From: Candidatus Roseilinea sp.
GTDB taxonomy: Bacteria > Chloroflexota > Anaerolineae > J036 > Brachytrichaceae
NCBI GenBank assembly: GCA_025055235.1
Contig: JANWYN010000064.1
Coordinates: forward strand, 1 to 64,000
Length of the DNA: 64,000 nt
Reading direction: 5' to 3'
This document shows, piece by piece, positions 52,009-55,472 of the stretch (the stretch's first letter is position 1; each line of letters opens with the position of its first letter). The position numbers were made by a program, and so were the translations under genes. The notes under the pieces are model-generated. The model saw only the letters and a program-made list of their open reading frames with translations, was not told the origin of the DNA and did not search any database.

Positions 52009-52038
52009 TTGGATGGCTTACCATCGCCGTGCTAGAAT
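52009..52038 (+). promoter_or_regulatory. Sigma-70-type promoter of the glyA operon
   Basis: TTGGAT (52009-52014), 18-nt spacer, TAGAAT (52033-52038). The predicted start near 52045 is just upstream of the riboswitch aptamer, which supports the assignment. Confidence 0.65.
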
Positions 52039-52052
52039 CGCGTTAATTGAAC

Positions 52053-52130
52053 CGCTGCGCCGACTGACGATTCGAGTGGAATGGACCACATGGAAGCGCA
52101 GCGCGCATGCCAAGCCGATCGTCTGGGCAG
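52053..52130 (+). promoter_or_regulatory. ZTP (pfl motif) riboswitch aptamer
   Basis: P1 is CGCTGCGC (52053-52060) with GCGCAGCG (52096-52103), 8 bp. The conserved internal segment GACTGACG follows P1, then P2 GTGG/CCAC (52076-52079, 52086-52089) and GGAAGC. The diagnostic CTGGGCA (52123-52129) is present. The pseudoknot GACG (52066-52069) with CGTC (52120-52123) is kept by a compensatory change from the usual GGCG/CGCC. ZTP riboswitches sense ZMP/ZTP (low folate) and switch on one-carbon genes; it lies upstream of glyA-gcvT. Confidence 0.85.
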
Positions 52131-52168
52131 GAGGCAATCGAGGCGCGTCGCCTCATTGCCTCTTTTTT
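52131..52168 (+). terminator. Intrinsic terminator, expression platform of the ZTP riboswitch
   Basis: GAGGCAAT/ATTGCCTC (8 bp) stacked on GAGGCG/CGCCTC (6 bp) with a CGT loop and one unpaired C, followed by six T (52163-52168). It follows the aptamer directly and lies about 107 nt before the glyA start. Ligand binding would prevent its formation and allow transcription of glyA. Confidence 0.85.
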
Positions 52169-52275: not shown

Positions 52276-54165
52276 ATGGACGACTTTCTCATTCGCGGCG
52301 CGCTGGCCGACGTTGATCCCGACGTGGCCGAATTGATCCGGCACGAGCATGCGCGCCAGCTCGACAAGCTCATCATGATCGCCAGCGAATCCTACGTGCC
52401 GGCGGCGGTGCGCGAGGCCGAGGGTTCGGTCTTCCAGAACATCTATGCCGAAGGCTATCCGCACGCCGACATGCACGGCATGACCGAGGACGAGATCCTG
52501 GACTACGAGTCGCAACTGGCGTTCTACCGGCGCAATGGCGACCGGCGCTATTACAAGGGCGTCGAATACTGCAACTTGGTCGAGGCGCTGGCGCAGCGGC
52601 GCGGTGCCGAAGTGTTCTGCCCGCCCGGCATGTCGCCGGAGCAGGTGTTCGTCAACGTGCAACCGCTCAGCGGGGCCGTGGCCAACACAGCGATCTACGA
52701 GGCGCTGGTGCAGCCGGGCGACACGGTGATGACGCTCGACTTGTTGCACGGCGGCCATCTCTCGCACGGCAGCCCGGTCAACGTCACCGGCCATCGCCAG
52801 CGCATCGTGCACTATCGCGTGAACGAAGAGACCGAGCTGCTGGACTACGAGGAGATCTACGAGCTGGCCCAGCGCGAGAAGCCGAAGATGATCATCGCCG
52901 GTTACACGTCGTATCCGTGGGCGCCCGACTTCCACAAGTTCCGCGCCATCGCCGATTCGGTTGGCGCGTATCTATTAGCCGACATCGCGCACACTGCCGG
53001 CATGGCCGCTGCCGGCGTCTATCCCAACCCGGTCGGCGTCGCGCACGTCACATCGTTCACCACCCACAAGACGATGATGGGGCCGCGCGGCGCAGTCATC
53101 ATCACCACCGACCCAGAGCTGGCCAAGCGCATAGACCGCGCCGTGTTCCCGGGCATGCAAGGCGGCCCGCACCTGAACAAGATCGCCGGCATGGCCGTCA
53201 TGTTCAAGCTGGCGAAGACGCCGCAGTTCAAAGCGCTCCAGCGCCAGATCGCCAAGAACGCCGTTGCGCTCAGCGACGGCTTGAAGGCCAACGGCCTACG
53301 CGTGGTGCACGGCGGCACCAACACGCACATGGTCTTGCTGGATTGCAAGTCCATCGCCCAGCACGACGGCGTGCCGCTGATGGGCAACGTGGCGTCGCGC
53401 ATCCTCGACCTGATCGGCATCGTGTGCAACCGCAACACCATCCCCGGCGACAAAGACGCCAGCCGGCCGAGCGCGCTGCGCTTCGGCACGCCGTGGGTCA
53501 CCCAGCGCGGCTTGAAGGAAGACGACATGCGCGAGATCGCCGACGTGATCGCGCTGGTGCTCAAGACGGCCAAGCCGCACACCATCCCGACGAAGAAATC
53601 CGTGGCCTACACCGCGCGCGTGGATTTCGATGCGCTGATGGAAGGCGTGTCGCGCATCAACGCACTGGTCGCCAAGGCCAGCCGCGACTTCGACCTGCCG
53701 CACGAGGGCTATCCGTTCGTGTGGTATGCGACGAATGGGCAGGAGCCGGGGGCCAGGGACCAGGGGTCAGGGGCCGGGGATCAGGGACTCGGTGCCGGGG
53801 GTCAGGGCTCGGGGCCTAGGGGACAGGAGTCGGAGGTCGGGAGTCGGGAATCGGAAGTGGGGAGGCGGATCGAGGTATGTGGTGCGCAGTCGGCGGCGTT
53901 CCTAAGCGTCGTCTTGGGCGTGGACGTGGACACGCTGGCCGATGGCGCCGAGGTGACCGTGCTCGGGCGCAACCGCACACCGCTGTGCACGGCGAGGTTG
54001 ACCCGCGCCGCCGGCGGCTACGCGCTCGACGCGCCGCAGGACAAAGCGTCGCGCGTCACACAATGGCTGCGCGCGCTCTCCGACGGCTACGTGATCTTCG
54101 ACGACGCCGACGTGGGCATCAACATCCCCGGGCCGGTAGTGGTGAGATTGGTTGCTGGTCGCTAG
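52276..54165 (+). CDS. glyA: Serine hydroxymethyltransferase with C-terminal extension
   Basis: 629 aa, against about 420 for most GlyA. The SHMT core (residues 1-488) has SESYVPAAVREAEGS, the NIYAEGYP region, HGGHLSHGSPV, ADIAHTAGMAAAG and the PLP-Lys site TTHKTMMGPRGA (Lys near 265). A repeat-derived linker (about 489-532) joins a roughly 95-residue C-terminal domain (CGAQSAAFLSVVLGVDVDTLADGAEVTVLG to the end) that I cannot assign. Makes glycine and 5,10-methylene-THF. AGGAG is 9 nt before ATG. The stop lies inside a heptamer element; gcvT is 110 nt downstream. Confidence 0.92.
   Translation: MDDFLIRGALADVDPDVAELIRHEHARQLDKLIMIASESYVPAAVREAEGSVFQNIYAEGYPHADMHGMTEDEILDYESQLAFYRRNGDRRYYKGVEYCNLVEALAQRRGAEVFCPPGMSPEQVFVNVQPLSGAVANTAIYEALVQPGDTVMTLDLLHGGHLSHGSPVNVTGHRQRIVHYRVNEETELLDYEEIYELAQREKPKMIIAGYTSYPWAPDFHKFRAIADSVGAYLLADIAHTAGMAAAGVYPNPVGVAHVTSFTTHKTMMGPRGAVIITTDPELAKRIDRAVFPGMQGGPHLNKIAGMAVMFKLAKTPQFKALQRQIAKNAVALSDGLKANGLRVVHGGTNTHMVLLDCKSIAQHDGVPLMGNVASRILDLIGIVCNRNTIPGDKDASRPSALRFGTPWVTQRGLKEDDMREIADVIALVLKTAKPHTIPTKKSVAYTARVDFDALMEGVSRINALVAKASRDFDLPHEGYPFVWYATNGQEPGARDQGSGAGDQGLGAGGQGSGPRGQESEVGSRESEVGRRIEVCGAQSAAFLSVVLGVDVDTLADGAEVTVLGRNRTPLCTARLTRAAGGYALDAPQDKASRVTQWLRALSDGYVIFDDADVGINIPGPVVVRLVAGR
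53740..53870. repeat. Heptamer element inside glyA (GGGTCAG and GGGAGTCG words)
   Basis: About ten words of the GGGTCAG/GGGGCCG type then GGAGTCG/GGAATCG-type words. Read in frame as a Gly/Ser/Glu/Arg linker between the SHMT core and the C-terminal domain. Confidence 0.88.
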
Positions 54166-54268
54166 TCGCTGGTCGCTGGTTGTCGGTTGCTGGTCGCTAG
54201 TTGCTGGTTGTTGATTGCCGGTGAGCTGACACCCAATCATCAATCATCCAATCATGAATCATTCCCGA
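54150..54268. repeat. Heptamer element (GTCGCTG and ATCAATC words) between glyA and gcvT
   Basis: About nine GTCGCTG/GTTGCTG words (54152-54210), then aatcatcaatcatccaatca (54236-54258). The glyA stop codon and final residues (VAGR) are formed by the first words. Same word as 6706-6757. Confidence 0.88.
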
Positions 54269-54275
54269 TGACGCC

Positions 54276-55472
54276 ATGGCCGACCTCAAACGCACTGCCC
54301 TGTTTGAGACGCACAAGCAGCTCGGCGCGCGCATGGCGCCGTTCGGCGGATGGGAGATGCCGCTGTGGTACGCCTCGGCGCGCGAGGAGCACCTGGCCGT
54401 GCGCACCGCCGCCGGCCTGTTCGACGTCAGCCACATGGGCATGTTCGATGTGCGCGGGCCGGACGCCTGCGCCTTCCTCGACCGCGTCGGCACAAACGAC
54501 GTGAGCAAGCTGGCCGTCGGCCGCTCACACTACAGCTACATGCTCGACGAGCATGGCAACGTGGTGGACGACATCATGGTCTACCGTGTCGAGCCAGAGC
54601 GCTACATCGTCGTCGTCAACGCCGCCAACAACGACAAGGATTGGGCCTGGCTGCACACTCACGTCGGCGACTTCCGCTGTGCATTGCGTGACCTGCGCGA
54701 TCCGGCCTCCGGCGCAGACCGGCGCGTTGACCTCGCTCTGCAAGGCCCTAGGTCGCTGGAGATTTTGCAGCGCCTCATTCTCAATTCTCAATTCTCAATT
54801 CTCAATTCCCTCCCATACACCGGCGTGATGCGCGCCTCGCTCGCCGGCCATGATGTCTTCATCTCGCGCACCGGCTACACCGGTGAGCGCATCGCCTATG
54901 AGATCTTCGTGCACCCGGATGCGTCGGTCGCGCTGTGGCATGCGCTGCTGGACGCCGGCCGCGACCTGGGCCTGAAGCCGTGTGGGCTGGCCGCGCGCGA
55001 CAGCCTGCGCACCGAGGCCGGCCTGCCGCTCTACGGCCACGAGCTGGGCGGGCCGCTCAACCTAGCCCCGTGTCACATCGGCTTCGACAACTTCGTGAAG
55101 ACCGGCAAGGCCGCCGACTTCATCGGCAAGGCCGCCTATTTGGAGAAGGCGGCGCGCAACACATCGAAGATGATCCGCTTCCGCATGAACGAGAAGGGCG
55201 TGCGGCCGAGCAAGCTGGGCGACCCGGTGCTCGAGAGGCGCGGCCGGGTGATCGGCACGGTCACCTCCTGCGCGCAGGACGGCGAAGGCTACCTGCTGGG
55301 CATGGCGCTGGTCGAGCAGTCGGCGGGCGCGGAAGAGGGCAGTGTGATCTACATCGTCGCGCTGCCGGAGCGCATACCCGAACCGCTCAAGCCGTTCGCG
55401 CCGCCGGGCAGCCGCACACTGATGCCGGACGCAGCGACGGTGCTTTCGCGCTTCCCACCGCGGAGGGGGTGA
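54276..55472 (+). CDS. gcvT: Aminomethyltransferase, glycine cleavage T protein
   Basis: 398 aa. Seen: LFETHKQLGARMAPFGGWEMPLWY, HLAVRTAAGLFDVSHMGMFDVRG, YSYMLDEHGNVVDDIMVYR, SRTGYTGERIAYEIF, LGLKPCGLAARDSLRTEAGLPLYGHEL and IGTVTS. Transfers the methylene of aminomethyl-H-protein to THF, making 5,10-methylene-THF. Same transcript as glyA is likely. A heptamer run (54774-54813) is read in frame as an LNSQFSI-type loop. GcvH and GcvP are not in the window. Confidence 0.95.
   Translation: MADLKRTALFETHKQLGARMAPFGGWEMPLWYASAREEHLAVRTAAGLFDVSHMGMFDVRGPDACAFLDRVGTNDVSKLAVGRSHYSYMLDEHGNVVDDIMVYRVEPERYIVVVNAANNDKDWAWLHTHVGDFRCALRDLRDPASGADRRVDLALQGPRSLEILQRLILNSQFSILNSLPYTGVMRASLAGHDVFISRTGYTGERIAYEIFVHPDASVALWHALLDAGRDLGLKPCGLAARDSLRTEAGLPLYGHELGGPLNLAPCHIGFDNFVKTGKAADFIGKAAYLEKAARNTSKMIRFRMNEKGVRPSKLGDPVLERRGRVIGTVTSCAQDGEGYLLGMALVEQSAGAEEGSVIYIVALPERIPEPLKPFAPPGSRTLMPDAATVLSRFPPRRG
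54774..54813. repeat. Short heptamer run inside gcvT (ATTCTCA words)
   Basis: Five ATTCTCA words, in frame; because 7 bp x 3 = 21 bp the encoded peptide repeats every 7 residues ([11 protein letters not shown]). Lies between LEILQRL and YTGVMRA. Confidence 0.9.

Follow-up and report, generated by a model that had tools for sequence, protein, structure and literature searches.

A ZTP riboswitch leader upstream of glyA and gcvT

The locus lies on the forward strand of the 64-kb stretch of DNA analysed here (the window) and comprises, in order, an extended -10 promoter, a ZMP/ZTP aptamer, an intrinsic terminator and the genes glyA and gcvT, with a divergently oriented universal stress protein gene (usp) upstream. 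The first gene, glyA (52276–54165), encodes a serine hydroxymethyltransferase (SHMT) of 629 aa (PF00464, 413 bits; NF000586, 436.6 bits against a cut-off of 335) with a long C-terminal extension past the SHMT domain, and gcvT (54276–55472) encodes the glycine cleavage aminomethyltransferase (PF01571; TIGR00528, 291.8 bits against a cut-off of 235.85), so that both genes named in the original prediction stand. A search of the glyA-gcvT gap found no terminator-like site, and co-transcription of the two genes is therefore likely from the sequence.

Arrays of 7-base repeats are found inside glyA (53740–53868, where they encode a linker rich in Gly), over the end of glyA into the gap before gcvT (54149–54222) and within gcvT (54777–54808; ATTCTCA, 4.6 copies, 100% matches), and the glyA linker repeat has weak matches at two other places in the genome. 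The C-terminal ~100 aa of the glyA product (53870–54165 in the window; L176–L181 and L183 elsewhere) are without a Pfam or NCBIfam match and are retained across the family, though with lower identity. The open frame of glyA runs to ~950–1200 aa in three further genera, a length that would suggest a glyA-gcvT fusion.

The aptamer was identified with the Rfam covariance models (cmscan). RF01750 (ZMP-ZTP) matches 52050–52135 with 53.3 bits, well over its gathering score of 39, and is covered over its full length (model positions 1–86 of 86; E = 7.7e-06 for the 64-kb window against 4227 Rfam families). This is the sole Rfam match in the window with all families scanned, and a genome-wide search found the ZTP RNA as a single copy in the 4.0-Mb genome. 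The leader shares with the pfl motif of RF01750 all helices, the pseudoknot, the conserved core, a downstream terminator and a one-carbon gene, and the prediction of a genuine ZTP (pfl-type) riboswitch, with a terminator directly behind it and upstream of one-carbon genes, is confirmed. The link to one-carbon control is likewise supported, as a 2010 paper (PMC2864571) lists glyA as a target, one of the five found most frequently with pfl RNAs, and glyA and gcvT both belong to the one-carbon metabolism associated with RF01750.

The architecture reads as originally described and agrees with Rfam. P1 (8 bp) is formed by 52053–52060 and 52096–52103, with 100% of cells in the genus alignment paired in eight genomes and one compensatory change from C-G to U-A. 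The core GACTGACG (52062–52069) ends in the pseudoknot strand GACG (52066–52069), which pairs with CGTC at 52120–52123 and is invariant in the genus. Both Rfam and the genus alignment support the P2 hairpin at 52076–52089 (GTGG, 52076–52079; CCAC, 52086–52089) and the P3 core at 52114–52128 (GCC, 52114–52116; GGC, 52126–52128), whose loop holds the second pseudoknot strand and a conserved U; the P3 loop and core include CTGGGC at 52123–52128. The conserved words GACUGACG, GUGGAA, ACCAC, GCCG and CG.CUGGGC are all found. The pseudoknot GACG/CGUC differs from the Rfam consensus GGCG/CGCC by a paired change of G-C to A-U at one pair, and this variant occurs in more than 100 other genome stretches, many of them, among the matches listed, from Clostridia. 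U52124, in the P3 loop, is invariant across the genus; a U of the P3 loop contacts ZMP (PMC7337938). Every pair of P1, P2 and P3 is a standard pair in eight genomes, and as P2 and the P3 core are unvarying, covariation tests P1 only. The fold of the whole leader has a z of -2.9. We infer that the predicted aptamer binds ZMP/ZTP.

The strong terminator noted in the original prediction is a 14-bp hairpin at 52131–52162 followed by T6 at 52163–52168. Its arms are GAGGCAAT-c-GAGGCG (52131–52145) and CGCCTCATTGCCTC (52149–52162), and the hairpin alone is GC-rich, has a stability of -21.8 kcal/mol and carries one bulged base, C52139, presumably the reason why a simple terminator scan did not detect it. 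Two of its pairs show compensatory changes in the genus.

The promoter predicted upstream of the aptamer can be refined to an extended -10 element, TGCTAGAAT at 52030–52038, without a recognisable -35; a consensus scan found no two-hexamer promoter. The element is invariant in the eight ZTP-bearing members of the genus, and its longer form TGCTAGAATC (52030–52039) occurs once in the window against 0.14 expected. From the sequence, transcription would start ~7 nt past the -10 element, near 52045 and, as originally predicted, upstream of P1. Of the two results that the original prediction named as refuting it, neither is seen: the covariance score lies above threshold and the predicted start does not fall behind the aptamer. 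In 16 of the 24 family leaders read, TGCTAGAAT, TGCTACAAT or TGATAGAAT (the same element or one change from it) precedes glyA, and in these leaders the distance from the -10 element to the start codon ranges from 12 to 259 nt, with the riboswitch present or absent. The retention of the element where the riboswitch is absent supports independently a start upstream of the aptamer. At two loci of genus g3 (L169 and L170) TGCTAGAAT lies 12 nt before the glyA start codon, and the glyA transcript there may be nearly leaderless.

Conservation of the leader within the genus

The ZTP RNA is present in eight of nine genomes of the genus. Direct reading places it before glyA in seven; the assembly of the eighth (G004) has the RNA at the end of one contig and glyA at the end of another. 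In the alignment of the eight leaders, whose core positions are invariant and whose mean column identity is 90%, standard pairs occupy 98.1% of 263 pair cells, compared with 32–50% when the structures are slid by 1–3 columns. Changes on both sides are seen in three pairs, one in P1 and two in the terminator, a number reached by 7 of 500 shuffles with a measure that is lenient owing to the relatedness of the sequences.

In the ninth genome (G007) the same promoter and a similar terminator, GAGGCAAC, are retained, with an unrelated stretch of ~50 nt in place of the aptamer. This leader (L165, upstream of glyA on the reverse strand) folds together with its terminator with a z of -4.9, and its CCTGC is able to pair with GCAGG of the terminator arm; it may be the remnant of an aptamer or else a leader RNA of another kind. 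A recurring new RNA was considered and dropped, as the stretch has no Rfam match and a search of 396 genomes of the class gave no second copy of full length.

Position of the terminator and proposed switching

The ZTP switches of Clostridium beijerinckii, Fusobacterium ulcerans and Thermosinus carboxydivorans also carry an intrinsic terminator directly behind the aptamer, but there the terminator includes bases of P3 and displaces the aptamer (PMC10085676, PMC7484762, PMC7337938), whereas here it starts 1–3 nt after the P3 core. In the C. beijerinckii switch the invading strand migrates through the pseudoknot (PMC10085676). What our analysis adds to the original picture is that the terminator barely overlaps the aptamer, its 5' arm containing neither the P3 3' strand nor the pseudoknot strand, so that the usual invasion of these elements is not directly applicable. 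In the minimum-energy fold of the leader P1, P3 and the terminator are all present together, and mutual exclusion is thus not evident from pairing.

To place this layout among ZTP RNAs, the start of the terminator 5' arm was measured from the last P3-core base at 118 ZTP loci where a terminator could be recognised, a set whose named part was chosen for the GACG/CGTC pseudoknot, so that its fractions are no census. Outside the genus, the arm starts 8–13 nt inside the core, within or before the pseudoknot strand, at ~50 loci, and 1–4 nt inside, mostly exactly at GGGC, at another ~50; one locus has a distant hairpin. The leader of the window and those of its genus relatives start 1–3 nt past the core, as do eight loci outside the genus. 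The genes at these abutting loci are purH (L009, L136, L140 and L154), folD (L076), metE (L137) and an aminotransferase (L143), and the protein start at the eighth (L101) is near-identical to that of the folD locus. We tentatively raise the possibility, which we hold to be rather less than even, that the abutting arrangement with 0–2 shared bases is a minority ZTP layout of the genus, other members of the phylum and a few other bacteria, in which strand invasion of P3 or the pseudoknot could not occur and either the terminator foot would be blocked or, more radically, the logic would be OFF.

The leader is, with good confidence, a ZMP/ZTP riboswitch that acts on glyA-gcvT expression through early termination. 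Transcription would begin at the extended -10 promoter, near 52045, and P1, P2, P3 and the pseudoknot would build the ZMP/ZTP pocket. When ZMP/ZTP is scarce, the terminator at 52131–52168 would form and the transcript would stop before glyA; when 10-formyl-tetrahydrofolate is low, ZMP/ZTP would rise, the bound aptamer would prevent closure of the terminator, and the one-carbon enzymes of serine and glycine would be made. A ligand-ON switch with 2–3 shared bases is the most likely form of this control. The direction would be that inferred for pfl RNAs (PMC2864571) and described for the Thermosinus (PMC7337938) and Fusobacterium ulcerans (PMC7484762) switches, and the occurrence of the abutting layout before purH, folD, metE and an aminotransferase fits ON control, the expected direction for purH and folD.

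The block would act through the bases A, G and G at 52129–52131, where the outer part of P3 is predicted to compete with the terminator foot, rather than by invasion of P3 or the pseudoknot. The Rfam model assigns positions 52129 and 52130 to outer P3; in the terminator form their partners are the two leading U residues of the tract, and across the genus the pair 52130–52163, read off the alignment, is G-U in five leaders, G-C in two and A-U in one. A bound aptamer holding 52129–52130 would shorten the hairpin beside the U-tract. As the terminator retains -21.8 kcal/mol without its lowest pairs (-24.1 kcal/mol with them), such a block, if real, would have to work sterically or by altering the spacing to the U-tract. 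An overlap of this size has a precedent in another class, since the published covariation model of a TPP riboswitch has two nucleotides shared by aptamer and expression platform (PMC13273304); the parallel is one of layout only, the aptamer and ligand being different. An ON antiterminator by extension of P3 (UGCC, 52108–52111, with GGCA, 52133–52136) was rejected: random or shuffled linkers did equally well in ~0.2–0.3 of trials, no compensatory change was seen and one pair is lost in two genomes.

Among the alternatives, an aptamer that is real and selected could precede a terminator that shows little or no response to ZMP and is mostly a fixed attenuator. The lack of a supported competing structure is consistent with this, as is the genus member that keeps promoter and terminator with the aptamer swapped for an unrelated leader, but the invariance of the core and the covariation of P1 in the genus, whose aligned leaders average 90% column identity, speak against it and we consider it improbable.

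Marginally less probable again is a ligand-OFF switch, in which a hairpin formed without ligand by CGAU-c-GUCU (52116–52124) and AGGC-a-AUCG (52132–52140) would hold the pseudoknot strand and the terminator 5' arm and let the polymerase pass, while ligand would free the arm and the terminator would form. This hairpin excludes both the aptamer and the terminator, themselves compatible, which is the layout of OFF switches; it is part of the minimum-energy structure when the transcript ends at ~52141 to 52153 and is unchanged in seven of eight genus members. Against this, shuffled terminator arms were equally stable in 37% of trials, no compensatory change was seen, one pair is lost at L007, where a terminator pair covaries, and the abutting layout also stands before purH and folD, where ZMP-OFF control would make little sense. 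With no support above chance, the OFF antiterminator was set aside. Chance resemblance of the sequence to an aptamer, next to an ordinary intergenic terminator of a neighbouring gene, has no point in its favour and is refuted by the covariance score of 53.3 bits, together with genus-wide conservation and a site between the conserved promoter and glyA with usp divergent upstream.

We return to the ligand-ON reading with the expression platform, which is unusual but falls short of an established new mechanism. The ZTP switches of the cited papers are described as displaced by an invading terminator and here there is almost nothing to invade, which makes the leader a natural test case for the minimum overlap that a transcriptional riboswitch needs. 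The riboswitch type and its glyA target are already known and this leader is an added example; for annotation, one bacterial genus gains a glyA-gcvT leader under ZTP control.

Distribution in the family and phylum

Two other genera of the family have candidate ZTP leaders before glyA. That of G011 contains long insertions and stays below threshold with 31.7 bits (E 0.0011, 301 bases searched), and the weak candidate of G016 (22.1 bits, E 1.6) is accepted by position only. Horizontal gain in the genus alone, first suggested by the lack of hits in the other genera of the family, is weakened by these sub-threshold leaders. The ZTP leader is probably older than the genus and was lost more than once, a view drawn from few genomes.

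In a sample of 400 genomes of the phylum, 45 have a ZTP match, several of them directly upstream of SHMT or purH genes. An above-threshold match in G040 lies upstream of purH. In small genomes of one other family of the phylum (L130–L132, L138, L142, L145 and L151), a ZTP riboswitch stands before the gene for a protein of ~155 aa (MFSREWFVYVFGRWILLSGIAGA...) that resembles a small membrane protein.
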